This document shows, one piece after another, positions 1 through 17,064 of a stretch of DNA of 18,671 bases. Below the pieces are notes generated by a model. The model searched no databases. It was not told the origin of the DNA and saw nothing but the letters and a program-made list of their open reading frames with translations. Origin of the DNA: Magnetococcales bacterium (GTDB taxonomy: Bacteria; Pseudomonadota; Magnetococcia; Magnetococcales; DC0425bin3); assembly GCA_015229045.1 (NCBI GenBank), contig JADGCJ010000059.1:1-18671 (forward strand). Reading direction: 5' to 3'. The translations under genes were made by a program, and so were the position numbers. Each line of letters begins with the position of its first letter. Within the stretch, counting starts at the first letter, position 1.

Positions 1-50
1 CCACCAGGACTCTGTCCTGGACCTGCCAGGGGGCCAGCCCCCTGGACCCC
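1..50 (+). repeat. Partial copy of dispersed palindromic repeat family (copy A)
   Basis: This is the GC-rich end of the repeat family found throughout the window, cut by the window edge. It holds two perfect hairpins: CCAGGAC/GTCCTGG (4-10 with 14-20, 3-nt loop) and CCAGGGGGC/GCCCCCTGG (26-34 with 37-45, 2-nt loop). Nearly the same sequence recurs at 6186-6235 in the same orientation and at 3194-3243 inverted. No coding potential is evident. Its function is unknown; it may be a non-autonomous mobile element or a REP/BIME-like element. Confidence 0.8.
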
Positions 51-72
51 GTTTTTGACAGCTTCCGCTCTT

Positions 73-81
73 TTATCCACA
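73..81 (+). promoter_or_regulatory. DnaA box, perfect consensus TTATCCACA
   Basis: An exact match to the classical high-affinity DnaA 9-mer, just inside the left edge of the AT-rich region upstream of hemE. One such match in 600 bp could be chance. Its weight comes from the other boxes in the same tract. Confidence 0.6.
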
Positions 82-244
82 TCATCCTGTGCAAGATATA
101 ACAGAGAGAAAATTGATGATGTGTGTGACCCCCTGTTTTCCCATCCAGCGAAAAAACAATCCCCAATTGTTACAAGAAAATTCCCCTGATCCATTCCCCC
201 CAGAATGATATAAAAATCCCTATTGTTTCAATCAACAATGTGTT

Positions 245-253
245 TTGTCCACA
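245..253 (+). promoter_or_regulatory. Near-consensus DnaA box TTGTCCACA
   Basis: Differs from TTATCCACA only by G for A at position 3, a variant seen in several bacterial origins. It lies between the two perfect boxes. Confidence 0.45.
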
Positions 254-401
254 CATTCACAGCCAACGATTTCTACATCTGTTTTTTTATAAAATACAAA
301 TATAAAAAATAGGTTTGTGGTGCATATCCCAAAGCGGACAAGCTTTCTGAACAAATATCCCCAGACCCCTGTTTATCAATCCCTCACAGGTGGTGACAGT
401 T

Positions 402-410
402 TGTGCATAA
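402..410 (-). promoter_or_regulatory. DnaA box, consensus TTATGCACA on the minus strand
   Basis: Plus-strand TGTGCATAA reads TTATGCACA on the minus strand, a perfect match to TTWTNCACA. It is the closest strong box to the AT-rich tract at 481-528. Confidence 0.55.
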
Positions 411-480
411 ACCACGTTTTCAGGTTTTCGTAAAAAACGATCCCCCATTCATACAGGATGAATACCCCAATTCAATCCCG

Positions 481-528
481 ATAAAAAAAATTAAATCTTT
501 TTAAATTTCAAATAATAAGAAAATTAAT
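481..528. other. Extreme AT-rich tract, candidate DNA unwinding element
   Basis: Only three of 48 bases are G or C (positions 497, 509 and 519). It contains a 15-mer of the form TTAAAnnTTTTTAAA at 491-505, repeated at 566-580. Such a tract beside DnaA boxes is the usual arrangement of an unwinding element, but melting behaviour cannot be judged here. Confidence 0.45.
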
Positions 529-607
529 CCCCCCATCCACAGGCAACGTATTCTGCAATCATCCTTTAAAGATTTTTAAAACAGATAAAAAGAGGACTTC
601 TCGTCAA

Positions 608-637
608 TTGACACCCGATCGCTCCCATCTTTATAGT
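608..637 (+). promoter_or_regulatory. Sigma70-type promoter of hemE-hemN
   Basis: A perfect -35 TTGACA (608-613) is followed after 18 bp by TATAGT (632-637), five of six matches to TATAAT. Transcription would start near 644, giving a leader of about 40 nt before the hemE ATG at 684. The leader contains GGAAAC (670-675) as a modest ribosome binding site. Confidence 0.65.
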
Positions 638-683
638 CAACCACACGTCCGTCACCCCATTTTCATCTTGGAAACAGATCGAC

Positions 684-1757
684 ATGACCCCAACACACCC
701 CTTCCTTCGGGCCTCCCTGCGCTTGCCAACGGACAGAACTCCTTTGTGGATTATGCGCCAGGCTGGTCGCTATCTGCCGGAATATAGAAAAACCAGAGCC
801 AAGGCAGGCAATTTTTTGGCACTGTGCAAAAATCCTGAATTGGCTATGGAAGTGACACTTCAACCTTTACAGCGCTTTGATCTGGATGCGGCAATTTTAT
901 TTTCAGACATTCTGGTCGTTCCGGAAGCCATGGGAATGAGCCTGCGCTTTTCTGAAGGCGAAGGACCGCTTTTGGATCCGGTCATACGCCAAACGAATGA
1001 TTTAAAAATTTTGCAACCTGTTGAACCTGAAGTGCATTTGAATTATGTCATGCAAACCATCCAGGGCTTGCGTCAGGAACTGGCTGACAGAGTTCCGCTT
1101 ATCGGTTTTTCTGGCAGCCCGTGGACTTTGGCAACCTATATGGTTGAAGGGGGAAGCAGCAAAAATTTCAGTGCTGTCAAAGGCATGATGTACGACGATC
1201 CGCAAACCATGAACCGCTTGCTTGATTTGTTGAGCGATGGTGTGACCGATTATTTGAATGCCCAAATCCGGCATGGTGTTCAGGCAATACAAATCTTTGA
1301 TACCTGGGGTGGGATTCTTTCACCGCGTGATTTTCGGGAATTTTCCTTGCGGTCCATGAAGCGAATCCTGGATCGCCTGGAAAGGATCGGGCCTGATGGT
1401 CAATCGGTTCCTGTCATCCTGTTTGCCAAGGGGTGTGGAGCGCATCTTGAGGAGATGGCTGCAACGGGATGTGACGTTTTGGGTTTGGACTGGACAACGG
1501 ACCTTGTCCAAGCCAGGGATCGGGTTGGGGATCGGGTCGCTTTGCAAGGCAACATGGATCCGGCTGTCCTTTACGCTGGTCCGGAACGCATTCGGAAAGA
1601 GGTGTGTGACCTGCTGCGAGGTTTTGGATCACATCCGGGGCATATTTTCAATTTAGGACACGGTATGGCTCCAGACATGAATCCTGAACATGTTGCCGTT
1701 CTGGTTGAAACGGTCCGCAACGAAAGCCAACGCATCCATCAAGGAAAATTATTGTGA
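684..1757 (+). CDS. hemE: Uroporphyrinogen decarboxylase
   Basis: A cytoplasmic haem-pathway enzyme that removes the four acetate carboxyl groups of uroporphyrinogen III to give coproporphyrinogen III. The 357-residue product is close to the usual family length. The N-terminal family signature [11 protein letters not shown] (residues 25-35) provides substrate-binding arginines, and [17 protein letters not shown] is the second family signature. [12 protein letters not shown] carries the Asp region of the active site. The start is ATG 684 behind a clear promoter. The stop overlaps the next gene start by 4 bp (GTGA at 1754-1757), so hemE and hemN are translationally coupled. Placement beside an AT-rich, DnaA-box-bearing region matches the hemE-linked origins of alphaproteobacteria. 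The assignment is firm. Confidence 0.97.
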
Positions 1758-3163
1758 GTTTTTCACCAGTTTCTCAAAAAGTTTTGTTTGACCGCGCCCT
1801 TATCGGCCAATATGACCGGGCGGGGCCGCGTTATACCTCGTATCCGACCGCACCCCATTTCACCGACTCTTTTGGTCCGGAAGCATTTTACGACAACATC
1901 GTTTCTGCAGCGACCAAGGATTCCCGGCGCCCGATCTCCCTTTATGTCCACATCCCTTTTTGTGACACGGTCTGTTACTACTGCGCCTGCAACAAGGTGA
2001 TTACGCCGGACCGTTCGCGGGCCATGCATTACGTGACTTTTTTGGAAAAAGAGGTGGCTTTGGTTGGTGCCTTGTTGGATCGTCGGCGTCCAGTGGTTCA
2101 ACTTCACTTTGGTGGGGGCAATCCCACCTATTTGAATCTCGATCAAATGTCCCATCTGATGGAGACAATCCGCCACCATTTTACCCTGGTTGAAGGGGAT
2201 CTCGGCGAGTACGGGATCGAGGTGGATCCACGAGAGGTTCCACGTGGAACGGTGCAAGCCTTGCGCATGATGGGCTTTAACCGGATCTCCATTGGTCTTC
2301 AGGATCTCGATCCCAAGGTGCAAAAGGCGGTCAATCGTGTCCAGCCGCAATCCCTGAATCAGCAGGTGGTGGCAGAGGCCAGAGAGGCAGGGTTTCAGTC
2401 GATCAATCTGGACTTGATTTATGGATTGCCCTTTCAGAGCGTCGACTCGTTTCGCACGACTTTGGAGACGGTCGTGTGCGACCTGGATCCGGATCGACTG
2501 GCCATATTCAATTATGCCCACCTGCCCCAGTATTTTTCTCCGCAACGCCGCATTCAGGCGGGTGATCTTCCCAGTGCTGAAGAGAAGTTGCAAATTTTGG
2601 AAATGACCATTCGCTTTTTGACGGAAAATGGTTACGTGTACGTGGGCATGGACCATTTTGCCAAACCTGATAACGAGTTGGCTGTTGCCCAGCGTCAAGG
2701 GGTGCTGCATCGTAATTTTCAGGGTTACACCACCCATGCGGAGTGCGACCTTGTCGGCTTGGGCATTACGGCCATCAGTCAGGTGGGAGAGAGCTATGCC
2801 CAGAATCTCAAAGAACTGGACGCCTATTACCGGCGCTTGGATGAAGGAAAGTCGACTGTTTTTCGTGGGTTGCAATTGAGTCCGGATGATGTGATCCGTC
2901 GGGATGTCATCATGCGGCTCATTTGTGATTTTCAACTTGATCGAGCGGCTGTGGAGTCGCGGCACGGCTTGGTGTTTGAGGAGTATTTTCAGGCTGAAAT
3001 GGCTTCTTTGCGCACCATGACGGCCGAGGGTTTGCTGGAAGAGAGCGGATCTTTGCTGCGGGTCACTCCGGGTGGGCGTCTTTTGATTCGCAATATTTGC
3101 ATGGTTTTTGATTGGTATCTGTCGCATGCGGAACAAAAAAAATCCTTTTCCAAAACCATTTGA
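1754..3163 (+). CDS. hemN: Oxygen-independent coproporphyrinogen III dehydrogenase (radical SAM)
   Basis: A radical-SAM enzyme that converts two propionates of coproporphyrinogen III to vinyl groups without oxygen, giving protoporphyrinogen IX. It fits a microaerobic or anaerobic life. The 469 residues include the HemN-type N-terminus [12 protein letters not shown] (25-36) and the cluster motif [17 protein letters not shown] with C70, C74, C77 and the HemN-specific fourth cysteine C79. The SAM-binding glycine stretch reads [10 protein letters not shown], with Asn where many relatives have Thr. The full length and the extra cysteine favour true HemN over the HemW paralogue. The start is GTG 1754, overlapping the hemE stop. 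The stop codon lies in CATTTGA, resembling the flank of the repeat family downstream. Confidence 0.95.
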
Positions 3164-3193
3164 ATCGGCCATGGGCAGGGGAGTGTCGAAAAC

Positions 3194-3357
3194 GGGGTCC
3201 AGGGGGCTGGCGACCGGACAGGTCCAGGACAGAGTCCTGGTGGGGTTCGGGGCGAAGCCCCAATGGGGTTTGGGGCGGAGCCCCAATAAAGTCTTTCATG
3301 TCACCCCTTTTCCCCGATCACAAAAAAACGACGTATTTCAAAATAGACGCGGTTTAA
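3194..3357 (-). repeat. Dispersed palindromic repeat, copy B (minus orientation)
   Basis: On the minus strand it starts TTAAACCGCGTCTATTTTG, continues through a CGTCGTTTTTTTGTGATCGG segment, then TGACATGAAAGACTTTAT. Two GGGGCTYCGCCCC hairpin units follow, then CCACCAGGACTCTGTCCTGG and the GGGGTCC end. It fills most of the gap between hemN (ends 3163) and the convergent mepM gene. The same order of modules is seen at 6051-6235 on the plus strand. The rest of the gap (3358-3466) contains a 25-bp stretch shared with the trmFO 3' end. Confidence 0.85.
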
Positions 3358-3377
3358 GGTCCGATTTTTCAAGCATG

Positions 3378-3402
3378 CCAATTTCAAATGCGATTGCCCT
3401 GT
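3378..3402 (+). repeat. 25-bp repeat shared with the trmFO 3' end
   Basis: Positions 3378-3402 match 6268-6292 in 23 of 25 bases (core GCGATTGCCCTGT). A shorter inverted copy, GGGCAATCGCATTT, lies at 6038-6051. These copies sit just outside the palindromic repeats B and C and may be outer ends of the same element. Confidence 0.65.
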
Positions 3403-3466
3403 GAGGGGGTATTGAATAGTTGCAAAGCAGAACGACATGCTCCAAAGCGGACGCAACCGGGGAAAA

Positions 3467-5839
3467 CTATCGTCTGGAACCGGAGGGAAGGGAGGCCACC
3501 ATGGTTTCCGAGCGATCCAACATGGCCACCAACTGCCTGCTTTGATTGCGGAAGTCAGGCATGTATCTGGCGACGACCGGCATGGCTGCAGGCGATTGGA
3601 TGGAAAGGGGATTGATCGCTTCGCCATTGAGGCGGACTTCGTAGTGAAGATGTGGCCCGGTGGTGACCCCCGTCATGCCCACATGGCCAACGATCTGCCC
3701 CTGCCGAACGCGCGATCCCACATGCAGTCCGGAGACGAAACCGGACAGGTGGGCATAGCCGGTGGAATATTTGGTATTGTGGCGAATCGCGACCAGGTTG
3801 CCGTAGCTGCTTTTCCGGCCGCGGAACGTTACCACCCCGTCGCCCGCCGCCCGGACTGGCGTTCCGATGGGCGCCGCATAATCGACACCCTTGTGGGCAC
3901 GGGTGAAGCCGAACACAGGGTGCTTGCGCTTCATCGAAAACTGTGACGAGATACGCAGGAAGTCCACCGGGGCACGAATAAACATCTTTTGCACATTCTG
4001 CCCGTCGGGATCGAAGTAGCCGGTGCGTCCCGAGGGGTCGGTGTAGCGGATGACCCGGTAGGAGTTGCCTTGATTGACAAACTCGGCAGCCAGGATCTCG
4101 CCGTCGCGCACGGGGCGGCCATTTTCAAGGTGCTCTTCATAGATGACCGTAAAACGGTCACCCGTGCGAATGTCGCGGGCAAAGTCGACGTCCCACTCGA
4201 ACAGATTGGCCAGTTTGATGCCCATTTGCTGGGACAAACCAGCCCTGCGACTGGCCACGAACAGGGAGCCATTGACGATACTGCTGACTGAACGAACACG
4301 CCGCTCCAGTTTGCGCTCGACCATCTTGGGAACGAACTGGTTGTGATCGTCACGGGTCAACAGGAAGGTCTCCTCATCGTTGACCGGGTAGGAGAGGGCG
4401 GTCAATTCGCCCTCGGAGCCAAAGGCCAGGCGGAAACCCTTGCCAGGTTGCAGGTGATGGGCCAGATCGTAGACGGGTCGGGCGGCATCGGCCACTTCCT
4501 GGGTGGTAGCCTGATCGACTTCATTGCGTCCCAGGATGGCCGCCAGATGGTCTCCATCACGCACAAAGTCCTTGACGGTCCGGTGCGCGGACTTGAAGGT
4601 ATGTTGCATCTGAGCCACCAGTGCGTGGTTGGCCTTGCTGCGTGGGGTGCCGGTATCGGCCTGCACGGGAGGATGTCCGGAGATGGTGGCCGGTTCGGGG
4701 GCCGCTTGCGGCTCGGGGCCTTTAACTGGCGTCTGAGGGATGGCCACGGCCACGACCTCCGGCTCACTCTTGGGAACCGGGGCCACGGATTCGGAGGATT
4801 TGGTTGCCGCTGCCGTCTCTTGGGGGGGTGGGACCGCCCCGGGTCGTAATTTTTTGACCAGTTCGAGGACCCGGCGACCCGCCTGGGAAACGGTCATGGA
4901 TCTCTTCTCGAGTGCCTGATCCCGATTGGGGTGATCCGCAGATGCGTTATCGGTCCGGGCCAGGTTGGTGCTCTCTTGCGGATTGGCTGCCGGATTGGCA
5001 TGGGCGATACGCAGGGGCACGGGCTCAGCCATGGCGACCAGCGCGGGGGAGGTCGTCACGACCCGCGCAGTGGTCTCGGAGGGGGCTGACGTTGCCACGG
5101 CAGTGCTTGCCACAGGCAGCGGTGCTGGCAGCGGTGGTGCCACTTTGGCGAAGAATCCGGTCGCTCCCTGCGTGGGGGGCAACGCCACGGCGCTTTTTTC
5201 TTCCTCGACGATCCTTCGGGGAGCCGGGATGGGAAGCTGGACTGCAGTGACAGCGGAGGTCTTTGCCTCCGTTGTCAGAGGGAGGGGATTTGGTGTTGGT
5301 GGTGCGAGAGGAGTTTTGCCAACGCTGTCGCCAGGTTGGGCAGTGCTGCCATTTTTAGTGGCATCTTCCTGTTGCAGGGCATCCAGTATCTTGCGCGACG
5401 TCTCCAGGGCGCTCCGGGCTATCTGCACAGCGCCCCTGGTCATGTCGTCCGGTTCGGTTCTGGCTGCACTGTTTGTCAAACCAGTGGTTTCAGGCGCGGA
5501 TGCGAGAGGTTTTGGCGCCAGACGTGCGTAGGGCGGGACATAGCCTTCAGGGGGTCCCGGGGGTGGTTCCGGTTTGAGTCGGGCTTGCTCGGTTGAGCTT
5601 CCTCGTGGGACAGGAGCCGGAAACGAGACCAGAGGAACGGCTTGACTGGAGGCCTGAATCCTCTGACCCTTCTCGGCGCCCGTGTTGGCATCGAGTGCCC
5701 GATGCGCGGCCATGAGGCTGAGCGTCAGGACTCCGGCCAGTACCAGATAGGAACGACCGCTGCGACGATTGAGGAGACTTCGCTTTCTTCCCGGGCTGGG
5801 GAAGGGTCTCCTTGCTTGTTGTTCGCGCTTGAAAAACAT
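3467..5839 (-). CDS. mepM: MepM-like murein DD-endopeptidase (M23 family) with a long linker
   Basis: A predicted periplasmic zinc peptidase that cuts peptidoglycan cross-links during growth. The 790-residue product has a basic cytoplasmic N-terminus and one membrane segment at about 31-46. A Pro/Ala/Thr-rich low-complexity stretch runs to roughly residue 400. A MepM-type middle domain follows (...SIVNGSLFVASRRAGLS...). The C-terminal lytic domain shows HKGVD (H649, D653), YAHL (H697) and HLHYE (H730, H732), the full M23 metal and catalytic set. E. coli MepM is about 440 residues, so the extra length is nearly all linker, perhaps to span the envelope. The start is ATG 5839 with GAGAGGGA upstream. 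It stands alone, convergent with hemN. The domain call is firm; mepM as symbol is by best resemblance. Confidence 0.85.
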   Translation of the reverse strand: MFFKREQQARRPFPSPGRKRSLLNRRSGRSYLVLAGVLTLSLMAAHRALDANTGAEKGQRIQASSQAVPLVSFPAPVPRGSSTEQARLKPEPPPGPPEGYVPPYARLAPKPLASAPETTGLTNSAARTEPDDMTRGAVQIARSALETSRKILDALQQEDATKNGSTAQPGDSVGKTPLAPPTPNPLPLTTEAKTSAVTAVQLPIPAPRRIVEEEKSAVALPPTQGATGFFAKVAPPLPAPLPVASTAVATSAPSETTARVVTTSPALVAMAEPVPLRIAHANPAANPQESTNLARTDNASADHPNRDQALEKRSMTVSQAGRRVLELVKKLRPGAVPPPQETAAATKSSESVAPVPKSEPEVVAVAIPQTPVKGPEPQAAPEPATISGHPPVQADTGTPRSKANHALVAQMQHTFKSAHRTVKDFVRDGDHLAAILGRNEVDQATTQEVADAARPVYDLAHHLQPGKGFRLAFGSEGELTALSYPVNDEETFLLTRDDHNQFVPKMVERKLERRVRSVSSIVNGSLFVASRRAGLSQQMGIKLANLFEWDVDFARDIRTGDRFTVIYEEHLENGRPVRDGEILAAEFVNQGNSYRVIRYTDPSGRTGYFDPDGQNVQKMFIRAPVDFLRISSQFSMKRKHPVFGFTRAHKGVDYAAPIGTPVRAAGDGVVTFRGRKSSYGNLVAIRHNTKYSTGYAHLSGFVSGLHVGSRVRQGQIVGHVGMTGVTTGPHLHYEVRLNGEAINPLSIQSPAAMPVVARYMPDFRNQSRQLVAMLDRSETMVASLPSGSRR

Positions 5840-5988
5840 ATGTCCCTCTCATCCGATCCAGTCAGGGCACTGACGCTCCGGGGGCAAAGCTTGCTGGGAA
5901 GTAATCCAGAACGCAAAAATCGTACCAATCATTACTTTCTTGATGAACGAGCCCGTTCCCGGGTGAAGACGAACTCTGGGAAAGGATC

Positions 5989-6018
5989 TGTTTACTGGCT
6001 TTAGGGGGGGCATGTCAA
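5989..6018 (-). promoter_or_regulatory. Possible promoter of mepM
   Basis: On the minus strand, TTGACA (6018-6013) is followed after 18 bp by TAAACA (5994-5989). The -35 is perfect but the -10 is weak, and the leader of about 150 nt is long. A small inverted repeat, GAACG/CGTTC (5945-5958), lies within the leader. Confidence 0.3.
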
Positions 6019-6050
6019 GGAAGCTCATCCCTGCTGCGGGCAATCGCATT

Positions 6051-6235
6051 TAAACCGCGTCTACTTTGGGACACGTCGTTTCTTTTGTTTGGAAAAAAAT
6101 GTTGACATGAAAGATTTTATCGGGGCTTTGCCCCAAACCCCATTGGGGCTTCGCCCCAAACCCCATTGGGGCTTTGCCCCAAACCCCACCAGGACTCTGT
6201 CCTGGACCTGCCAGGGAGCCAGCCCCCTGGACCCC
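6051..6235 (+). repeat. Dispersed palindromic repeat, copy C, with triplicated hairpin unit
   Basis: The longest copy in the window. It begins TAAACCGCGTCTACTTTGG, then the CGTCGTTT segment and TTGACATGAAAGATTTTAT. Three tandem 23-bp units of GGGGCTTYGCCCCAAACCCC type follow (6122-6187), then the paired hairpins and GGACCCC. It is bounded by an outer inverted pair: GGGCAATCGCATTT at 6038-6051 and its complement at 6272-6290. The right outer end overlaps the last codons of trmFO. Unit number differs between copies (three here, two in B, one at 16679), suggesting slippage or unequal exchange. Confidence 0.85.
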
Positions 6236-6273
6236 AATGCCAAGAAGCGATCATGGTCTCGGGTGTACCAGTT

Positions 6274-7608
6274 TCAAAGGCGATTGCCCTGTTCCTCCTG
6301 GGTTGCCATCCAGGTGATGATGTCAGCCAGAGCGCGGCGGTTCAGGGCCTGTTTGCGGTCGCGTTGCGTTGTTCGTTCCAGCAGGGGGGGAAACAGGCCA
6401 AAGTTGATGTTCATGGGTTGAAAACTCCCCGAAGTCGCCCCGGTGGTGATATGGGTCAGCAAGGCACCGTGCGCTGTGGTGGGTGGGGGGGGGAGGGGTG
6501 TTTTCCCTGCTGCCATCCGGGCCAGAAAAATTCCTGCCAGCAAGCCCATGGCTGCCGATTCCACGTATCCTTCCACGCCGGTGATCTGACCGGCAAAGAG
6601 CCAGTTGGGTCGTTGGCGCCATTGCAGATATTCGCCGAGGAGGCGGGGGCTGTCGATGAAGGTATTGCGGTGCAGGGCACCCAGACGCAAAAATTCCGCT
6701 CCCGCCAGGCCAGGGATGGTTCTGAACAGGCGTGTCTGTTCCGGCCAGGTCATGCGGGTTTGAAAGCCAACCATGTTCCAGAGGGTGCCGAGGGCATTGT
6801 CCTGGCGCAACTGCACGACGGCGTGGGGTTGACTGCCGCCCCGGTGCGGATCGTTGAGTCCGACAGGTTTCATGGGACCGAAGCGCAGCGTTTCATGTCC
6901 CCGGGCGGCCATGACTTCGATGGGCAGGCACCCTTCAAAACAGGGTGTCTGGTCAAAATCGCGCGGGGTTACCTTGTCCGCTGCCAGCAGGCCGACGATG
7001 AAGTCGTCATACTGTTGGCGATCCATCGGACAATTGACATAGTCGTTTCCTTCTCCTTTGCCATAGCGTGACTGCTTCCAGGCAATCGAGAAGTCAACGG
7101 ATTCCAACGATACTATCGGGGCGATGGCGTCAAAGAAGGCCAGGCGGGCATGGCCCAGCTGCCGTTCCAGATGGTGCGCCAGACCGTCGGATGTCAGGGG
7201 GCCGGTGGCGATGAGAACCCACCCCTTTTCGGGGAGTGTTGTCACCTCTTCCCGGACCAGGGTTACCAGGGGGTGTGTTGTCAGCCGGGAGGTGATCCAG
7301 CGCGAGAACCCTTCCCGATCGACGGCCAGGGCGCTGCCGGCCGGTACCCGATTGGCTGTGGCGGCGGCCAGGATCAGGCTTTCCAACTGGCGCATCTCCT
7401 GGTGCAGCAACCCTACGGCATTGCGGGTCGGGTCGTCGGAGCGCAACGAGTTGGAACAGACCAGCTCTGCCAGCAGGTCCGTTCGATGGGCCGGTGTCGA
7501 GCGGTGAGGGCGCATTTCGTACAGGCGCACGGGAAAGCCGCGTCGTACCAATTGCCAGGCTGCTTCGCTGCCGGCCAGACCCGCGCCAATGATGTGAATG
7601 GGTTCCAT
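6274..7608 (-). CDS. trmFO: Methylenetetrahydrofolate-tRNA-(uracil-5-)-methyltransferase TrmFO
   Basis: An FAD- and folate-dependent enzyme that makes 5-methyluridine at position 54 of tRNA, using methylenetetrahydrofolate rather than SAM. The 444 residues are the usual family length. The N-terminus has the FAD Rossmann fingerprint [13 protein letters not shown] (G8, G10, G13), then the TrmFO-typical YEMRP and [13 protein letters not shown]. Later blocks include [19 protein letters not shown] and a C-terminal INFGLFPP. The start is ATG 7608. It is the last gene of a three-gene minus-strand run after two glycosyltransferases, 45 bp downstream of the nearer. Its last codons (QGNRL-stop) lie in a sequence repeated at 3378-3402, so the extreme C-terminus may have been shaped by repeat insertion. 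Confidence 0.95.
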
Positions 7609-7653
7609 GTTTCCCCGGAGGATTGTTGTTGAAAAAACGGTAACTGCCCTGCT

Positions 7654-8763
7654 CTATGCCCTGTCTTTCAAACACCGCTGCAACAGTGTTTCCGTGCAAT
7701 CCAGCATGGTATCCACGGCAAAGCGAGGCTTGCTCCCTTGCCGCGCCGCCAGACCCAAAGCACGGCAACGTTCCGGATCACTCATCAAGGCGGCCAGAAG
7801 CTCTCCCAAAACGTGCGGGTCGCCAGGAGGAACCAGGAGACCCGTTTTTCCGTCGTCGATCACCTCGGCAATGCCACCAATCGACGTCCCCACCACAGGC
7901 AGACCACACGCCATCGCCTGCAAAATCACCTGTGGCACACCCTCGTTGGCCAGTGAAGGCAAAACAAATAAATCCAGCGCCTGCAACCAAGGCACCACAT
8001 CAGCCTGATTGCCTGCCATCAGGACGCGCTCTCCGAGATGGAGATCGGCTGTCTGGCGTTGCAAATCCACCCATCGGTCACCATCCCCGATAAAAACCAG
8101 TCGTGCATCGGACGTCGCCAACGCCTTGAACGCCTCCAAAAGAATGTGATGCCCTTTCCAGGTCCGCATGACGGCAACGATGCCAATCAAGAATGCCGAC
8201 TCGGGCAACCCCAGACGACGCCGTGCCGCAAACCGCTCACCAGGACAAAACCGCTCCAGATCGATGCCGGTCGGAATGGAGGTTACCTGTTCCGGCGGAT
8301 GCCCGTTGCGCTCGATCAACTGCCGACGAATGCACTCCCCCGTCGTGATGACATGTCCCGCAGCCTTTTGATACAACCAGCGCGTGGGAAGATTGTCATG
8401 GACCGGCGTGGAGATATGTCGTGCCCGCATCAAAAAGGGTCGCTGCCGCAAAAAAAGCGCGGCCAGTGCCGTCAACCAACTGTCCGTCGAGCTGTGGCTG
8501 ATGACCACATCGACCGGATGGTCGCGCAACCAGCCCCACATGGCCCGCAACCCCGCCAGGTTCTTGCGTCCGATAGGTAACGCCGTGACCGGCAAACCCC
8601 TGCGTTGTGCCTCTTCATACAGACGCGCCGACCCCGGGCAAACCAGCTCCACCTGGTGGCCGCGACCGATCAGACCAGCCACCTCCGTCAGGATGCGCAT
8701 CTCCTGCCCACCCAGTCCCTGGGATGCCTCGGTGTGCAAGATCCGGAATGGCGTAGGGTTCAC
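7654..8763 (-). CDS. Glycosyltransferase, GT4 family (GT-B fold)
   Basis: Predicted cytoplasmic-face sugar transferase using a nucleotide sugar, probably for lipopolysaccharide or other surface glycan; donor and acceptor cannot be told. The 369 residues show a GT4 N-terminus with the glycine loop SQGLGGQEMR (14-23). Donor-site Arg/Lys lie in VAVMRTWKGHH (R200, K203), and the C-terminal block is NEGVPQVILQAMACGLPVV. In the usual E-x7-E motif the second Glu is Gln here (E274, Q282), a variant I recall from other GT4 sequences. The start is GTG 8763, only 3 bp after the GT2 gene, implying coupled translation and a joint pathway. The family is firm; the role is inferred. Confidence 0.9.
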   Translation of the reverse strand: MNPTPFRILHTEASQGLGGQEMRILTEVAGLIGRGHQVELVCPGSARLYEEAQRRGLPVTALPIGRKNLAGLRAMWGWLRDHPVDVVISHSSTDSWLTALAALFLRQRPFLMRARHISTPVHDNLPTRWLYQKAAGHVITTGECIRRQLIERNGHPPEQVTSIPTGIDLERFCPGERFAARRRLGLPESAFLIGIVAVMRTWKGHHILLEAFKALATSDARLVFIGDGDRWVDLQRQTADLHLGERVLMAGNQADVVPWLQALDLFVLPSLANEGVPQVILQAMACGLPVVGTSIGGIAEVIDDGKTGLLVPPGDPHVLGELLAALMSDPERCRALGLAARQGSKPRFAVDTMLDCTETLLQRCLKDRA

Positions 8764-8766
8764 GTT

Positions 8767-9540
8767 TCAACCCTGCTTCTTGAAACTGGCCTTTCCCTCC
8801 ATCCATGGCAGGGCGATTTTGTAGTCACGGTTGGCCTGGTCGAGGGTTTTACGATCCAGCAAACGGCCAAAGTGGCGAATGTCGCGGTCAGTCTGCTCGG
8901 AAATGGTGCAGGTATGCTCAAATCCAGCGCCATCGGCAATGTGGACCTCCCAGCCCTTTTTATGCGCCCGGGCACAATACTCCACCTCGTCGGCCAGGGG
9001 AGAAAAAGCGGTGTCAAACTCACCGATCTGACGATGAGCCTCCCGCCGGACGCCAAAAAGAAAACCATGCACCCCCTGACAGGGACCAGGAGTGTCAACC
9101 TTACGACCATCGCGGATGCCACCTACGCCAACAATCCCCACCTTGGGTTGGTCAAAACTCTTCAACAGGGCAGCCACCGCCCCCTTTTTGAGGAGACAAT
9201 CGCCATTCATGATAAAAAAGATGGCCCCCTCGGCAAGCTGATACCCGACATTCCAGGCCCGCGCCACCCCCGAATTTTGTGAAACGCGACACCAGCGGGT
9301 AACCCCCGCCATATCCTCCAACACCGCCAGCAGCTTTTCGGTGTGTCGGGGATCCTCCTCCAGTTGATTCAGAACGACAATCAACTCCCCCTCTCCCCCG
9401 AGTTGCTCGACAACCGAATTCAAGGCCCTGCGAAACAGGGCGGGTTTTTCGCCCCACCCGGTCACGATGAAGGAGAACCGGGCCAGGGGACGGTCCGTCA
9501 CAGGGCACGGTGCCGACTTGTTGCTTTTGCGAAAAAACAC
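8767..9540 (-). CDS. Glycosyltransferase, GT2 family (GT-A fold)
   Basis: A predicted inverting glycosyltransferase. The core begins RFSFIVTGWGEKPALFRRALNSV, followed by LIVVLNQLEED, then the acceptor/donor blocks QNSGVARAWNVGYQLAEGA and FIMNGDCLL. In the last, NGD (residues 112-114) takes the place of the DXD metal site. A later DEVEYCARAHKKGW block fits the family. The reading frame is open up to an ATG at 9744, but the first ~65 residues of that longer version look unlike protein and would run up to the yebC start. I therefore prefer GTG 9540 (257 aa); a start at another GTG a few codons further in is possible. It lies 3 bp upstream of the GT4 gene in an operon ending with trmFO. Confidence 0.8.
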   Translation of the reverse strand: MFFRKSNKSAPCPVTDRPLARFSFIVTGWGEKPALFRRALNSVVEQLGGEGELIVVLNQLEEDPRHTEKLLAVLEDMAGVTRWCRVSQNSGVARAWNVGYQLAEGAIFFIMNGDCLLKKGAVAALLKSFDQPKVGIVGVGGIRDGRKVDTPGPCQGVHGFLFGVRREAHRQIGEFDTAFSPLADEVEYCARAHKKGWEVHIADGAGFEHTCTISEQTDRDIRHFGRLLDRKTLDQANRDYKIALPWMEGKASFKKQG

Positions 9541-9746
9541 GATGATTGACTCTGGCCGACGAACGGGATGGCTGCTCTCTACCGCCAGGGAGATTACACG
9601 AAGCCGGGCACGAAGGCATCCGAGAAAATCCAGCAAGGGTCGCCGCTGGACACTTTGGCCGGATTTGTCTAATCTCTCGCCAGACGCAAAACGGTTGCAG
9701 GCCGCTCCGACCAAACCGGATACAAGCCAATCGCAGGGAGCCAAGC

Positions 9747-10496
9747 ATGGCAGGACACAGCAAATGGGCCAATATCAAGCATCGCAAAGGGGCACAAGAC
9801 GCCAAACGCGGCAAGATCTTCACGAAGCTGATTCGTGAAATCACCATCTCCGCACGCACCGGCGGCGCAGACTTCTCTGCCAACCCGCGTCTGCGTGCCG
9901 CCATGGCCGCTGCCCGCGCCCAGAACATGCCCAAGGATACCATCGAGAAAGCCATCAAACGGGGTATCGGCGACATGGATGGGGTGGTTTACCAGGAGGT
10001 GCGCTACGAAGGATACGGTCCCGGAGGGGTTGCCATGATCGTCGACACCCTCACCGACAACATCAACCGTACCGTGGCCGATGTGCGCTCGCTTCTCGGC
10101 AAGCATGGCGGCAATCTTGGCACCACCGGCTGCGTTTCCTATCTTTTCGATCAGAAGGGGCAAATCCTTCTGGAAGAGGGGAACGAAGATGCCCTCATGG
10201 AGATCACCCTGGAGGCCGGTGCCGAAGACCTCATCGCCGACAGCAACGGTTTTGAGATCATCACGCAGCCTGACATGTTCGAGCCGGTTTTGCAGGCCCT
10301 GGCCAAGGCCGGATTCGACAAACCAGCCTCCGCCGAAATCACCATGCGCCCCCAAACCACCGTCACCCTGGATGACAAAGCCGCCGAAAGCATGCTCAAA
10401 CTCGTCGATGTCCTGGAAGATCATGACGATGTCCAGCGGGTACACGCCAACTTTGACATCCCCGATGCCGTGATGGAACGCCTGGGCGGTGGCTGA
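9747..10496 (+). CDS. yebC: YebC/PmpR-family protein (TACO1-like)
   Basis: A member of the widespread YebC/TACO1 family, described as transcriptional regulators and more recently as aids to translation of proline-rich stretches. The 249 residues start with the diagnostic MAGHSKWANIKHRKGAQDAKRGKIF. They continue with NPRLRAAMAAARAQNMPKDTIEKAIKRG, YEGYGPGGVAMIV and LGTTGCVSYLF. ATG 9747 is chosen because it begins this invariant block and has GGGAG six bases upstream, although the frame stays open further left. It is 5 bp ahead of ruvC, the usual proteobacterial order. In this genome the proline-rich MepM and Mms6-like proteins would be plausible clients; that is inference only. Confidence 0.96.
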   Translation: MAGHSKWANIKHRKGAQDAKRGKIFTKLIREITISARTGGADFSANPRLRAAMAAARAQNMPKDTIEKAIKRGIGDMDGVVYQEVRYEGYGPGGVAMIVDTLTDNINRTVADVRSLLGKHGGNLGTTGCVSYLFDQKGQILLEEGNEDALMEITLEAGAEDLIADSNGFEIITQPDMFEPVLQALAKAGFDKPASAEITMRPQTTVTLDDKAAESMLKLVDVLEDHDDVQRVHANFDIPDAVMERLGGG

Positions 10497-10501
10497 ACAC
10501 C

Positions 10502-11014
10502 ATGCGCACCCTGGGCATCGACCCGGGCACCACCGTGACGGGATGGGGAGTCGTCGAGCGTCAGGGCAACCATCTGCGCCATGTTGCCCATGGTTTCATT
10601 CGCACCAGTGCCGCCACACCTCTGCCGGAGCGCCTGACGGAAATTTTTCATGGTCTGTGTCGTGTCATCACCGAACACCAACCCGACGTGGCCGCTGTGG
10701 AGGCCATTTTCTTGTCGCGCAACGTCCAAAGTGCCATGAAACTCGGCCATGCGCGTGGAGCGGCCATCGTCGCTGCCAGTCATAGTGGCTTGCAGGTTCA
10801 TGAATATGCCGCCCTGGTGGTCAAAAAAGCCGTCGTTGGTTATGGACGGGCAGAGAAGCAGCAGGTTCAGGAGATGGTTCGCATCCTTCTCGGCATGGGT
10901 CAAACCGCCCCGCCGGATGCTGCCGATGCCCTGGCCGTGGCTCTGTGCCATCTGCAACAGGCTGCCTCCCCCCTGCTGACCATCGACACAACAAAAAATA
11001 AAACAAATTGGTAA
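10502..11014 (+). CDS. ruvC: Holliday junction resolvase RuvC
   Basis: Endonuclease that cuts Holliday junctions symmetrically, working with the RuvAB motor. The 170 residues are the family length. The RNase H-like fold starts RTLGIDPGTTVTGWG, and all four acidic catalytic residues are present: D7, E67 (AAVEAIF), D139 and D142 (PPDAADALAVALCH). The start is ATG 10502, 5 bp after the yebC stop. ruvA and ruvB do not follow; the strand changes after a palindrome. The TAA stop (11012-11014) is the first three bases of a TAAACCG repeat end, so the last codons (TKNKTNW) may be repeat-derived or replaced. Confidence 0.96.
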   Translation: MRTLGIDPGTTVTGWGVVERQGNHLRHVAHGFIRTSAATPLPERLTEIFHGLCRVITEHQPDVAAVEAIFLSRNVQSAMKLGHARGAAIVAASHSGLQVHEYAALVVKKAVVGYGRAEKQQVQEMVRILLGMGQTAPPDAADALAVALCHLQQAASPLLTIDTTKNKTNW

Positions 11015-11067
11015 ACCGAATCCATTTTGAACGAATTGGGGTCCAGGGAGCCAGCCCCCTGGACCCC
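11012..11067 (+). repeat. Short repeat-family copy D with terminator-like hairpin
   Basis: A TAAACCGAATCCATTTTGAA end module leads straight into the 30-bp palindrome at 11038-11067 (GGGGTCCAGGG / CCCTGGACCCC, 11-bp stem, 8-nt loop). It lies between the convergent ruvC and acyltransferase genes and could act as a two-way terminator, though there is no T-tract on either side. The internal modules of the full repeat are missing. Confidence 0.75.
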
Positions 11068-11101
11068 GATTCGTTGTCAGGTGCTGAACAGCTGCAAAAT
11101 T

Positions 11102-12262
11102 TTATTCCCCGTCGGGGTGCGCCTTCAGATGAAGCGCCAGATCATCATCGAGCGTCTGCCAACCCACCGTGCGCGCCACCGCCGCATAAATCCTGTGCAT
11201 CAACGGGTTGCGATGTTGAGCATAATTTGTCAACGCAACCAGACGATGACCAAGCCTGATCTTGGCTGCATAGCCGGTCTGTCCGCTCTGTATCGCCTTT
11301 GCACCACGCGCCACTGCCCAATCGACAACAGCTTCCCAGAGCCGGAAGTAAAGATACCACCCCTTCGGTCGCCGATAATCAATGCCGATAAACTTGTTGA
11401 TGACCAGAGCATCGAAGGCAAAACAGAGCATGAAGGCAACCATCTCACCACTGCCATGCTCACGCAGGATGATAAAATGCGCCTGGGGCTGTGTGGCAAT
11501 CTGTGCAAAAAAAGGGCGACCCAGACGCTCGAAGCGGGTCTTCGCCTTGTCATAGGTCTGGCTGAACAGAGCAAACACCGCGTCGAGCGTCCCGGTATCG
11601 GGAAACTGCTCGACCTGGATGTCGATGGCAACCTGCTCGGCGCTGCGCCGAAGTTTTTTTTGCAGATTGTGCCGCCGCATGCCGGTCAGGGAGGCCAGAT
11701 AAGCGGCCTTGCTCTCCCCAGGCAGATCGACCAGCGTGCCAGGAAAACTGACGACCGGAAACAACCCGGAGCCGGGCAGCAGACGGGCAAAATCGGCGTC
11801 GAACGAGGCAGGAAAATCCTTCCATACCAGCATCGATGCCCGGTGAATACGTACCTGCTGGCGCAACGCCTCCTGCAAGGCGCGCAGAACGGCCAGTCGA
11901 TCGACTCCCGGCAGCATGCCGACCTGTCCTTCGTCGGCACAGGGCGAACCGACGAACAACGTCCGCTGATAAAGCAGAGAAGGAAAAATCTTGCCAAGCA
12001 GATTGAAGAGAGGCAGCAGATTGGGCGGCACCACCAGCCCGATAGGCAGATCCATCAGGAAGGTCGGCGCGATGGCGACCATCCGGTTGTCCAACGTGAC
12101 CAGCCCGTAGAAAAAGGTGAACTGATCGTCGAGGTGACTACGCTCCAGGGTTGTGTACCACCACCTGCCCTCCAGAGGGGGCGGAAAACAGCTCTCCCAA
12201 AGCGAGGGCGCAATCTCGGTCGCCGAACGGAGCCAGGTCACAGAGAGGGTTGTGTCGCTCAT
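11102..12262 (-). CDS. FemAB/GNAT-type acyltransferase-like protein
   Basis: A 386-residue protein whose layout resembles the GNAT-superfamily Acetyltransf_6/FemAB-like group: a divergent N-terminal half (to about 180), then TGMRRHNLQKKLRRS (193-207). The C-terminal half includes FALFSQTYDKAK, HFIILREHGSGEMVAFMLCFAF, NKFIGIDYRRPKGWYLYFRLWE and a closing LGHRLVALTNYA block. Related proteins transfer amino-acyl or acyl groups onto envelope precursors or lipids; the substrate here is unknown. The start ATG 12262 overlaps the stop of the preceding SMR gene (ATGA, 12259-12262), so translation is coupled. The frame stays open upstream but has no credible start there. Last gene of the five-gene minus-strand operon. 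Fold call moderate, function open. Confidence 0.7.
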   Translation of the reverse strand: MSDTTLSVTWLRSATEIAPSLWESCFPPPLEGRWWYTTLERSHLDDQFTFFYGLVTLDNRMVAIAPTFLMDLPIGLVVPPNLLPLFNLLGKIFPSLLYQRTLFVGSPCADEGQVGMLPGVDRLAVLRALQEALRQQVRIHRASMLVWKDFPASFDADFARLLPGSGLFPVVSFPGTLVDLPGESKAAYLASLTGMRRHNLQKKLRRSAEQVAIDIQVEQFPDTGTLDAVFALFSQTYDKAKTRFERLGRPFFAQIATQPQAHFIILREHGSGEMVAFMLCFAFDALVINKFIGIDYRRPKGWYLYFRLWEAVVDWAVARGAKAIQSGQTGYAAKIRLGHRLVALTNYAQHRNPLMHRIYAAVARTVGWQTLDDDLALHLKAHPDGE

Positions 12263-12591
12263 CGTTGCGTCGCCACCAGGGCACAGCCGGTCAGGATCAA
12301 TCCGAGTCCGAGCCAGCGCCTGGGATCGATCTCCTCCCCGAGCAGCCAGCGTGAAAAGAGAGCGACCGAGATAAAACTCAGGGCACCCACCGAATAGGCG
12401 ATGCTGACATCGAGCCTGGACAGGGCGCCGGAGTAGAGGACGGCTTCGATGCCGAAGAGGAGCAGGGCCACCAGGATCCAGGGGCGTTTGCCGAGGGTCG
12501 TCAGCGCCGATTTTTTCAGGCAGACCTGGGCAAGGCCCTCGATTGCGGCGCAAAATACGACCAGGAGCAGTCCGATCCAGGATGTGTTCAT
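12259..12591 (-). CDS. SMR/EamA-type small membrane protein, short partner
   Basis: A 110-residue, four-helix integral membrane protein of small multidrug resistance (EmrE/ArnE) type. Helix 1 holds the membrane glutamate E18 in AAIEGLAQVCLKKS, equivalent to EmrE E14 and its surroundings. Helix 3 has LDVSIAYSVGALSFISVALFSRWLLGEEI, like the EmrE block after the GxAYA motif. The last helix ends ILTGCALVATQR. Proteins of this size act as drug exporters or, as the ArnE/ArnF pair, as flippases of lipid-linked amino sugars. The start ATG 12591 has no clear ribosome binding site and follows a repeat in the gap. The stop overlaps the acyltransferase start. The companion at 12740-13159 suggests a heterodimer. 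Confidence 0.8.
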   Translation of the reverse strand: MNTSWIGLLLVVFCAAIEGLAQVCLKKSALTTLGKRPWILVALLLFGIEAVLYSGALSRLDVSIAYSVGALSFISVALFSRWLLGEEIDPRRWLGLGLILTGCALVATQR

Positions 12592-12603
12592 CAAGGGAAA
12601 CAA

Positions 12604-12693
12604 AAAAAACCAATTGAAAGACTGGGATGGAGGCCCAGGAGGAGGCGCCGTGCCCTCTCTTCTGGTGGGGTCCGGGGCGAAACCCTGCACAGG
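12604..12693 (-). repeat. Dispersed repeat, partial copy E between the two SMR genes
   Basis: Read on the minus strand, it has a GGACCCCACCAGAAGAG part, GGGCACGGCG, and the CATCCCAGTCTTTCAAT end. The closest match is 16688-16744 (copy F). It sits in the only sizeable gap of the five-gene operon, just upstream of the short SMR gene, and may have been inserted after the operon formed. Confidence 0.65.
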
Positions 12694-12739
12694 AGAGCTG
12701 GCCGAAAGCAGGCATCTGTTTGCATGCAGCTTGCCGTCA

Positions 12740-13159
12740 TCATGGGCGGATCGCCACGTTATCAGGGGTTGGGGTGACGCGCTGGCCCTGACTGATGATC
12801 CAGACGCCAGTGAGGATGCACACAATGCCCGCCAGCTTGATGGCACTGACCGCCTCGTTGAACAGTACTGCCGACAGGAGCCATACCGTGACGAAGCTCA
12901 ACGAGGTCATGGGCTGCACAAAACTGATGTCGGCCTGTTCGAGAACCTTTAACCAGTTAAAGAGTTGCAGAAGGAACAAGACAATAACCACAAGAAACAG
13001 CGGCTCCGCCACGACTGCTCTGGCCAGAGTGACGAGATCCCGGACCTCAGGCAGCCGCACGACGGCCATTTTCCACAGCACCTGTGCCGCCGTATCGAGG
13101 GTGATGGCAATGCCAAGCCCCAGCACAAGTGTCGGTGTCAAGCCGCAGGGGTGACCCAT
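12740..13159 (-). CDS. SMR/EamA-type small membrane protein, long partner
   Basis: A 139-residue, four-helix membrane protein of the drug/metabolite transporter superfamily. Helix 1 is LVLGLGIAITLDTAAQVLWKMAVV: in the place of the usual SMR glutamate it has Asp22, with Lys30 in the expected spot. Helix 3 region QADISFVQPMTSLSFVTVWLLSAVLFNEAVS and helix 4 KLAGIVCILTGVWIISQ are typical EamA. A soluble tail of about 15 residues follows. The length difference from its 110-residue neighbour recalls ArnF (about 128) beside ArnE (about 111). The start ATG 13159 lies 7 bp after the aminotransferase stop with AAGG upstream; an in-frame longer version reaches into the aminotransferase gene and looks spurious. 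Confidence 0.75.
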   Translation of the reverse strand: MGHPCGLTPTLVLGLGIAITLDTAAQVLWKMAVVRLPEVRDLVTLARAVVAEPLFLVVIVLFLLQLFNWLKVLEQADISFVQPMTSLSFVTVWLLSAVLFNEAVSAIKLAGIVCILTGVWIISQGQRVTPTPDNVAIRP

Positions 13160-13166
13160 GCCATGA

Positions 13167-14543
13167 TCAGCCTTGGGTGACACGGGCCAGGAGCTGGTCG
13201 AGCAGCTTGAGGGAGAGATCCATTTCGCTGCGACTGATCTCCAGCGAGGGGGCGATGGTGACCACGTTCTTGTAGTACCCCCCGATGTCGAGGACCAGGC
13301 CGTACTGTTGGCCATCGCAAACGAGGTTGCCTTTCATGGCCTCATCGACCATGCGATCGGTCATGGCTTTGTCCGGGGTCAGGCCATCTTCGGTACATAT
13401 TTCCATGCGCAGGGCCAGGCCCAGGCCATCCACATCGCCGATGATGCGATATTTGCGCTGCAACTCTCGCAACCCTTCCAGCAGGTAGGCACCATGGGTC
13501 ATCACCGAGGTTTCATAGTCTTTGGACGCCATCCACTCCAGGGTTGCCAGGGCCGTGGCGGTACCCAGGGGATTGGCCGAGAAGGTGGAGTGGGTCGAGC
13601 CAGGCGGAAAGACGCCCGGATTGATCAACTCCTCGCGTGCCCACAAACCGGCAATCGGATTCATGCCGTTGGTCAGGGCCTTGCCAAAGACGATCACGTC
13701 CGGAGTGACGTTGAAGTGCTCCAACGCCCAAAATTTGCCGGTACGATAAAAACCCATCTGGATTTCGTCATCGACCAGGAGAATACCCCTGGTTTTGAGG
13801 ATTGCTTGCAGCTTTTCAAAGTAACCCGTCGGTGGAATGACATACCCGCCGGTGCCCTGAATCGCCTCGACGTAGAAGGCGGCATATTCGCACTTGTTCA
13901 CCTTGGCATCCCAGACGCCGCAATACTCGGTATCGAAGAGCCGGGCGAATTGATCGACGCAATACAGCTCGCATGACGCCTTTTTTTTGCCGTAGGGGCA
14001 GCGGAAGCAGTAGGGGTAGGGGACGAATTGCGCCCGGTCGCCAAAATGACCATAACGGCGCCGGTAGCGATAGGACGAGGTGATCGACGATGTGCCCAGG
14101 GTACGACCATGATACCCCCCCTCGAAGGCAAAATTGAGGCTTTTGCCGGACGAGGCGTTGCGCACCAGTTTCAGGGAATCCTCGACCGCCTGGGCGCCAC
14201 CGACGTTGAAGTGGATACGCCCCGGCAAACCGAAGGTTGCCGCAACCCTCTGTGCCAGAATGCGCGACAGGTCAATCTTTTCCCGATGCAAATATTGGCA
14301 GGCCAGCTGGGGGAGGGTATCGATCTGGCGTTTCAGGGCGGCGTTGATGTGCGGGTTGGCATAGCCGAAGCTGCAGGCCGAATACCACATTTGCAGATCG
14401 AGGTAGGGTTTTTCCTGCTCATCGTAGAGAAACGACCCCGCGCAGCGGGTAAAAATCTTGGGTGGGTCCAGATAGTGGACCGTGTCGCCGAAAGAGCAAT
14501 AAATGGCCTCATCCTGCAGCAATGTGTGAACATTTTTGCTCAT
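13167..14543 (-). CDS. Class III PLP-dependent aminotransferase
   Basis: A fold-type I, class III aminotransferase (the GABA/ornithine/omega-amino acid group), 458 residues. Motifs: VGGAQAVEDSLKL (114-126), FEGGYHGRTLGTSS (140-153), VDDEIQMGFYRTGK with PLP-binding D259, and the Schiff-base lysine K288 in VIVFGKALTNGMNP. Four cysteines in PYCFRCPYGKKKASCELYC (C179, C182, C191, C195) form an insertion of a type seen in some relatives, where GABA transaminase carries an iron-sulfur cluster. The donor and acceptor cannot be set from sequence. The start ATG 14543 comes 3 bp after the phosphatase stop, with its ribosome binding site GGGAG inside the phosphatase 3' end. It is the second gene of the operon and presumably aminates an aldehyde or ketone. 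Confidence 0.88.
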   Translation of the reverse strand: MSKNVHTLLQDEAIYCSFGDTVHYLDPPKIFTRCAGSFLYDEQEKPYLDLQMWYSACSFGYANPHINAALKRQIDTLPQLACQYLHREKIDLSRILAQRVAATFGLPGRIHFNVGGAQAVEDSLKLVRNASSGKSLNFAFEGGYHGRTLGTSSITSSYRYRRRYGHFGDRAQFVPYPYCFRCPYGKKKASCELYCVDQFARLFDTEYCGVWDAKVNKCEYAAFYVEAIQGTGGYVIPPTGYFEKLQAILKTRGILLVDDEIQMGFYRTGKFWALEHFNVTPDVIVFGKALTNGMNPIAGLWAREELINPGVFPPGSTHSTFSANPLGTATALATLEWMASKDYETSVMTHGAYLLEGLRELQRKYRIIGDVDGLGLALRMEICTEDGLTPDKAMTDRMVDEAMKGNLVCDGQQYGLVLDIGGYYKNVVTIAPSLEISRSEMDLSLKLLDQLLARVTQG

Positions 14544-14546
14544 GTT

Positions 14547-15284
14547 TCAGCTCCCGAAGTTGGTTGCCGCCTGACCGGCGTGGCCCGGAAGCATGTCGGA
14601 TGTGACCCCGTGGGTCAAGGATGAAGCCAGTCCTTTTTTTTGGGCCAGGGCGCCCAGCAGCCAAGTGGCCCTGGTGAACCGGACGAAGGGAACATGGGGC
14701 AAGCCCCGTTCGAGGCAATGGCGCAGGAGTTTATCCTTGGCGAAGACCAGATCCACCTGCGCGGCTGCGCAAAAATCCGAGGCCCCGTCCCCGACCAACA
14801 GGTGTCGTCTGCCGGAGGAGGCATGATTGCGGGCGACATGACATTTGCAGGTTCCCGCTGCGGCGCTGCACAGGGTATGGGCATGGGGAAAAGAGAGTCG
14901 GTAGCGATCCTGGCCGACTCTCTCCAGGTGATTGGCGATCACGGGCAGAAAGCCCAGACCATGGCGGTGCAGAATGCGCTGGATGGCGTAATCGATACCA
15001 TCGCTCACCACGAGCAGGTCGCAGCCGAGGCGTTGTGCGTGATCGACAAAACGGGCGAAGCCGGGGTCGATATCGATCCGATCCAGGTGATCATCCAGAT
15101 CCTCGAGCGAGGCGCGCAGCAGGCCGATCTGCCGCTCCATGCAGGCGCGGGATCCCAGGCGACCCGCCTGCCATTCGGTCTCCCAGAGCCGCCACTCCGG
15201 CAGGGCAAAGGCCTCCAACAGGCTGTCGGTCACGTCCTTGCGGGCGATGGTGCCATCAAAGTCACAGATAATGCGAAAGGGCAT
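14547..15284 (-). CDS. MtnX-like HAD-family phosphatase
   Basis: A 245-residue HAD-IB phosphatase resembling MtnX (hydroxy-ketomethylthiopentenyl-phosphate phosphatase) and phosphoserine phosphatase. Motif I is ICDFDGTIA with nucleophile D8 and acid/base D10; motif II is VVSDG (S94). The motif III lysine is likely K147 in TCKCHV, and motif IV is LLVGDGASDFCAA (D166, D170). The N-terminal pattern DVTDSLLEAFALPEWRLWETEWQAGRLGSRACMERQ is MtnX-like. No other methionine-salvage gene is nearby, so a different phosphorylated substrate in this operon is likelier. The start ATG 15284 has AAGGA seven bases upstream. It is the first gene of the five-gene operon. Confidence 0.85.
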   Translation of the reverse strand: MPFRIICDFDGTIARKDVTDSLLEAFALPEWRLWETEWQAGRLGSRACMERQIGLLRASLEDLDDHLDRIDIDPGFARFVDHAQRLGCDLLVVSDGIDYAIQRILHRHGLGFLPVIANHLERVGQDRYRLSFPHAHTLCSAAAGTCKCHVARNHASSGRRHLLVGDGASDFCAAAQVDLVFAKDKLLRHCLERGLPHVPFVRFTRATWLLGALAQKKGLASSLTHGVTSDMLPGHAGQAATNFGS

Positions 15285-15482
15285 GCGTTATCCTTGAGAA
15301 TCAAGCGTCACCGGCCATTCATGACCGATGTCAGCCAGCCCTCTCGTGCGCAAGACCAACGCCGCCCTTCAGCCGGAACATGAAAGCCCGGAGGACGGCG
15401 AAAAAAACCGCGATGGCCCCGGCAGGATCCTCTCCGGACTTCCGCCCGATCCTCCAGGCACTCCCGCCGACAAGGGCGCCGC

Positions 15483-15510: not shown

Positions 15511-15520
15511 CGACGGATTC

Positions 15521-15895: not shown

Positions 15896-15922
15896 GGCTT
15901 GTCCTGACTGTGGAAGAGTGAC

Positions 15923-16783: not shown

Positions 16784-16802
16784 GCAAGGGTGGAGGCCGG
16801 TT

Positions 16803-17063: not shown

Positions 17064-17064
17064 T

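Follow-up and report, generated by a model that had tools for sequence, protein, structure and literature searches.

A probable hemE-linked chromosomal origin with a doubled DnaA-binding module in a Magnetococcales bacterium

The DNA analysed here, which we call the window, is a stretch of 18,671 bp from a Magnetococcales bacterium (contig JADGCJ010000059.1, positions 1 to 18,671). Near its left end lie hemE, which encodes uroporphyrinogen decarboxylase, and hemN, and a cluster of DnaA boxes with AT-rich DNA adjoins hemE on the upstream side. We consider that positions 72-600 probably constitute the chromosomal origin of replication (oriC) of this organism and that this origin comprises two tandem, diverged DnaA-binding modules of approximately 245 bp. 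All of the evidence presented is computational. The features of the locus are as follows.

1-60, no strand: end of a dispersed GC-rich repeat, inside which the contig starts
72-315, plus strand: origin module copy 1
73-81, plus strand: left DnaA box of copy 1, TTATCCACA
88-96, minus strand: weak inverted partner of the left box, reading TGTGCAAGA on the plus strand; several relatives have TGTGNATAA there
245-262, plus strand: right-hand boxes of copy 1, TTGTCCACA (245-253) and CATTCACAG (254-262)
268-318, no strand: AT-rich tract to the right of the right box of copy 1, candidate unwinding site, second in the window for low stability
355-378, no strand: degenerate left box pair of copy 2, ATATCCCCA (355-363) and TGTTTATCA (370-378)
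356-592, plus strand: origin module copy 2, tandem to copy 1 with a period of about 281 bp
402-410, minus strand: middle DnaA box of copy 2, TTATGCACA (TGTGCATAA on the plus strand); several relatives have a similar box in the same place
480-530, no strand: 51 bp of lowest stability, including a 48-bp AT tract, to the left of the right box of copy 2
533-542, plus strand: right DnaA box of copy 2, CCATCCACAG
549-599, no strand: AT-rich tract to the right of the right box of copy 2, alternative candidate unwinding site
608-637, plus strand: sigma-70-like promoter ahead of hemE (TTGACA, 18, TATAGT)
684-1757, plus strand: hemE, uroporphyrinogen decarboxylase (TIGR01464, 446 bits; Pfam URO-D)
1754-3163, plus strand: hemN, the gene after hemE in all 21 module-bearing relatives

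The initial annotation of this DNA had described an AT-rich tract without a long gene beside hemE. This description holds for positions 60-683, where the GC content is 0.38 compared with 0.58 for the window and where the only reading frames of at least 60 amino acids are those that run off the contig start. An Rfam scan of the window for RNA elements gave no match at the gathering score. Perfect TTATNCACA boxes occur at 73-81 on the plus strand and at 402-410 on the minus strand and nowhere else in the window, and the sequence at 245-253 is a box with one mismatch. Dinucleotide shuffling of 60-683 yielded two or more perfect boxes once in 5000 trials (mean 0.03). The 48-mer starting at 481 contains exactly three G/C, as had been reported, and this is the lowest count among all 48-mers of the window. 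The closest outside match of the HemE protein is from Magnetococcus sp. DMHC-1 (82% identity).

These three boxes do not form a single cluster. Their positions had all been given correctly, two being perfect and one bearing one mismatch, but they belong to two tandem, diverged module copies, which had been overlooked and which are the new observation of this study. Each module consists of an inverted pair of DnaA boxes, approximately 180 bp of intervening sequence, a right box and an AT tract. The copies could in principle be an assembly artefact, or copy 2 could be decayed filler beside a single working module, and we regard this explanation as unlikely. In its favor, the contig starts in a dispersed repeat, letters of the left box have been lost in copy 2, and G003, the nearest relative examined, has a single module copy within 10 kb upstream. 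However, the copies are only 73% alike in their best 48 nt, and hence the assembly has not duplicated a single stretch. A profile built without the window finds both of them and ranks copy 2 (41.9 bits) above copy 1 (35.9 bits). Furthermore, two copies in another arrangement occur in three relatives: Magnetococcus marinus MC-1, G015 and G011 each have two inverted copies 1.5-3 kb apart. Those of MC-1 are at 23,530-23,782 and 26,703-26,953, and in MC-1 and G015 the copies are inverted around aroE, NIF3 and a gene of about 377 aa. One putative origin module therefore shows two kinds of doubling in a single class, tandem and inverted.

The kinship of these modules was examined in the class to which G003 belongs. 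A HemE search of a 398-genome sample of the phylum yielded 48 genomes of this class, with dnaA found in 43 and hemE in 39, and 36 of the 39 hemE loci were read (all except those of G114, G174 and G122). Twenty of the 36 loci, G011 with its partial hemE match among them, have perfect boxes no further than about 850 bp upstream of that match. The aligned gaps share a footprint that begins with the inverted pair TTATCCACA-N6-TGTGNATAA, the right member of which often has altered letters. Approximately 25 bp further along comes another TGTGNATAA-like box, followed by a right box that mostly ends in TCCACAG (invariant across 8 aligned gaps) and by AT-rich sequence. The distance from the left to the right box is nearly fixed, at 171-193 bp in 16 aligned modules and 180-183 bp in 11 of them.

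A profile was then made from 16 module copies (two each from the window, MC-1 and G015, and one each from ten genomes) and searched against 141 sequences of Magnetococcia loci and the window, amounting to 2.38 Mb with partial overlap. At E<1e-4, a module was found upstream of hemE in 21 of the 36 genomes, 9 of which contributed no sequence to the profile. The upstream sequence extended to at least 4 kb in 15 of these 21 loci and to about 3.3 kb in G011. Elsewhere in the 2.38 Mb, the only matches at this threshold were the inverted second copies near hemE; none occurred in the dnaA loci or in other stretches of MC-1, and weak matches were scattered up to E 10. Among the 15 genomes without a match at E<1e-4, G070 has one at the right place (E 0.18) and G158 has part of one (E 0.067). 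In 8 of the 36 loci (L118-L125, from G134, G027, G150, G031, G019, G054, G062 and G166), hemN, the gene of about 377 aa and the module were not found near hemE. The origin of this branch, in which the skew was read for G019 only, probably lies elsewhere.

The cumulative GC skew, which had been set beforehand as a check on an origin beside hemE, was computed in MC-1 for 460 kb around the record start and for twenty further 20-kb samples. It reaches its minimum at 25,761, a position flanked by the two modules and 1.3 kb short of hemE (27,106), and the opposite switch falls between 2.2 and 2.4 Mb in the 20-kb samples. In G066, G086 and G015 (the contigs of the latter two read in part), the minimum is 0.2 kb, and in each case no more than 240 bp, from the start of the hemE match, and in G046 it is 6.2 kb away. 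Therefore, all five module-bearing contigs tested have their minimum 0.2-6.2 kb from hemE, and the joint chance of these five positions is 1.3e-6 under uniform placement. G011, in which hemE is 4 kb from the contig end, and shorter contigs lie outside this sample of five. Among five contigs without a module, the minimum is not at hemE in four: it is about 10 kb from hemE in G158 and about 39 kb in G094, and the skew rises through hemE in G110 and G019 (115 of 158 kb read). In the fifth, G186, it is 1.35 kb from hemE on a shallow curve. The comparison of the two groups indicates that the skew switch tracks the module more than hemE as such. An origin at hemE for the whole class is rejected, because G158, G110, G094 and G019 have no minimum at hemE and, in the parts that were read, no module at E<1e-4.

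The same data bear on whether the boxes instead form a hemE promoter under DnaA control or a site that titrates DnaA, with the origin elsewhere near by. A good sigma-70-like promoter does lie between copy 2 and hemE, just past copy 2 (two such sites, against a shuffle mean of 1.3), and its letters align with similar ones in MC-1, G015 and G003. In addition, hemE is 13-45 kb from dnaA in the 6 genomes, of 37, that have both genes on one contig, and any origin located in between would give a similar coarse skew. However, minima as close to hemE as those of G066, G086 and G015, together with the displaced minima of the contigs without a module, argue against this explanation, as do the second copies of MC-1 and G015, which sit between the A24 peptidase gene and aroE and away from hemE. 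We consequently judge it to be quite improbable.

An origin at dnaA, as the numbering of the MC-1 record suggests, seems to us very improbable, although several observations speak for it. The MC-1 record begins at dnaA (193-1515), where the skew has a second and shallower minimum (-8 at -1000 vs -143 at 24,000). The skew of G035 rises overall and yet has a local dip right at dnaA, and the minimum of G158, which lacks a module, is about 3 kb from dnaA. Of these observations, the dip in G035 and the shallow minimum of MC-1 weigh most against an origin at hemE. Conversely, no perfect box was found upstream of dnaA in any of 25 loci examined out of 43, with 1 kb searched in 22 loci and 736, 241 and 181 bp in the remaining ones, or in the 1181 bp across the start of the MC-1 record. 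Four contigs with dnaA and without hemE were read whole or in part (G066, G082, G182 and G035), and in the first three the skew keeps falling across dnaA with no turn. The minimum of G066 lies on a different contig, at hemE. In module-bearing genomes, a dnaA origin is therefore disfavoured, and the placement beside hemE proposed in the initial annotation is supported by the module in 21 of 36 loci, the five skew minima, the 25 dnaA loci free of perfect boxes and a shared gene order.

This gene order is coaE, A24 peptidase and aroE, then NIF3 (reading away), the gene of about 377 aa, the module, hemE and hemN in MC-1, G015, G003 and G023, and parts of it were seen in the other module-bearing loci. 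The gene of about 377 aa precedes hemE in 20 of the 21 module-bearing loci, and its MC-1 representative (L111:5568-6701) has no match in Pfam, NCBIfam or the PDB. The layout of hemE and coaE was also checked in 36 of the 398 sampled genomes. A coaE gene that reads away from hemE at a distance of 1.9-3.9 kb is present in 12 of the 18 genomes without a strong match to the window HemE, which we assume to be mostly alphaproteobacteria, compared with 0 of the 18 others. In these 12 genomes, coaE is on the side on which Magnetococcia have aroE and coaE; in Magnetococcia and in the alphaproteobacteria-like genomes alike, coaE lies across from hemE and is oriented away from it. Caulobacter presumably also has aroE and coaE on the same side of hemE. 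These similarities suggest that the hemE-side position of the origin is common to Magnetococcia and Alphaproteobacteria by descent. The branching position of Magnetococcus is disputed, according to PMC7179689.

According to PMC1914354, hemE-linked origins include Cori of Caulobacter, located between hemE and COG1806, and the origins predicted in Rickettsia, Wolbachia, Ehrlichia and Anaplasma. The putative origin described here is similar to them in having hemE as a neighbor and an AT-rich stretch of a few hundred base pairs that contains DnaA boxes. By its place, it is of the known hemE-linked kind, and yet it lacks CtrA sites and has a doubled module. The exact CtrA site TTAA-N7-TTAA does not occur in 60-683 or in any of the 16 modules, and for this reason the stretch is not classed as a CtrA-controlled Cori. 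A site for integration host factor (IHF), WATCAANNNNTTR, is also absent from 60-683 and occurs in 1 of the 16 modules, that of G023. A CcrM homologue is absent from Magnetococcales, according to PMC3973325. Moreover, the place of the Caulobacter COG1806 gene is taken in 20 of 21 module-bearing relatives by the gene of about 377 aa. The window itself starts too close to hemE to include the neighbor on that side, where a COG1806 or COG1253 gene would be expected for a hemE-linked origin of the alphaproteobacterial kind.

The proposed mode of action is as follows. DnaA would bind at the inverted left pair, the middle box and the right box, and bending of the intervening DNA would bring these sites together. 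A DnaA filament might then extend from the right box into the adjoining AT-rich tract and open it, and the opened tract would allow the helicase to load. The two copies may work together, because the left and right boxes are better in copy 1, whose AT tract is also in the usual position (268-318), whereas copy 2 has the perfect middle box. The basal unwinding system consists of a DnaA box, a spacer and DnaA-trios, according to PMC8287927. We counted triplets with a middle T starting no more than 16 bp after the right box. Runs of at least four are found in 10 of the 16 modules, as would be expected of that system, and none of 400 shuffles reached this number (mean 3.7). Runs of at least three occur in 11 modules, compared with a null of 8.0, and 36 of 400 shuffles did as well. 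For the YTW form, runs of at least three occur in 4 modules vs 1.9 (39 of 400 shuffles) and runs of at least four in 2 vs 0.3 (14 of 400). Because the modules are related, these counts are not independent. The window itself has runs of only 2 in copy 1 (TTT CTA at 270-275, within the tract 268-318) and 3 in copy 2 (at offset 16), where that system calls for at least three trios. Our confidence that the modules carry DnaA-trios is moderate.

Two-part origins have been described in other bacteria. In Helicobacter, other Epsilonproteobacteria and Bacillus subtilis, two DnaA-box clusters flank dnaA, and unwinding has been observed only in oriC2, as stated in PMC5043019. The present locus resembles these bipartite origins in having two DnaA-box clusters close together. 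It differs from them in that the clusters are homologous copies of one module. Some Magnetococcia might even have a double-headed origin, in which two homologous modules, each with DnaA boxes and an AT tract, would each be opened by DnaA and would each load one helicase, or one of them would be a spare. The two modules follow each other in tandem in the window, and in MC-1, G015 and G011 they face outward. We offer this idea tentatively, as a possibility that we do not favor. The literature that we searched on two-part or duplicated origins and on Magnetococcia origins contained no description of a doubled module of this kind. Likewise, no publication on a Magnetococcia origin was found by a search that missed most subscription papers and the MC-1 genome paper, and the accessible parts of PMC2731167 (on the dif site), PMC8116508, PMC5088516, PMC3973325 and PMC7179689 describe no Magnetococcus origin.

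At the other end of the window, positions 15521-18474 carry a cluster of MamD/Mms6/MmsF-like genes and, in the opposite orientation, a gene of 86 aa (16803-17063). The proteins of 15,521-15,943 and 17,809-18,474 are MamD/Mms6/MamG-like but fall below the NCBIfam cut-offs. Those of 16,032-16,403, which has only a weak DUF4870 match, and 17,415-17,753 we take to be MmsF. The same mms set occurs in G003 on a 5.2-kb contig (L234). The initial annotation had proposed that proximity to the origin would affect the dosage of magnetosome genes, and this proposal is not supported. Among 37 genomes having both hemE and an MmsF-like match, only MC-1 has them on one contig, where they lie at 0.027 Mb and 2.906 Mb, a distance of approximately 1.84 Mb around the circle. 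Many other hemE contigs are so short that they speak neither for nor against such a linkage.

Dispersed repeats lie between hemN and the mms genes at 3184-3357, 6050-6235 and 16,608-16,704, and the repeat end at 1-60 recurs at 3184-3243 (inverted) and at 6186-6235. This GC-rich repeat, which is similar to repetitive extragenic palindromic (REP) elements, is also present in contigs read from G003, G058 and G178 (L092, L232-L237). In the window, the gene order breaks between hemN and an M23 peptidase gene, and inverted dispersed repeats sit at this break. None of the relatives read shows the hemN-to-M23 junction, and where the M23 gene and hemE share a contig they are 18 kb (G078), 35 kb (G046), about 370 kb (MC-1) and 497 kb (G011) apart. 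Because the inverted repeats 3194-3357 and 6050-6235 flank the M23 peptidase gene, this segment could flip. The linkage of hemE and the mms genes may be real for the source organism, or it may reflect a rearrangement or an assembly join, and it cannot carry a claim on magnetosome gene dosage. As a loose parallel to the window, contig G142:C434 has an M23 peptidase gene (2061-3386) 5.5 kb from an MmsF-like gene (8923-9225). A plasmid is thought unlikely, because the hemE, hemN, trmFO, yebC and ruvC families are housekeeping families.

These results place the origin of module-bearing Magnetococcia next to hemE. In the cultured strain MC-1, the origin is thus likely to lie approximately 26 kb from the dnaA start of the record. 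The doubling of the module in two arrangements makes it testable in a cultured strain why some bacterial origins are two-part.
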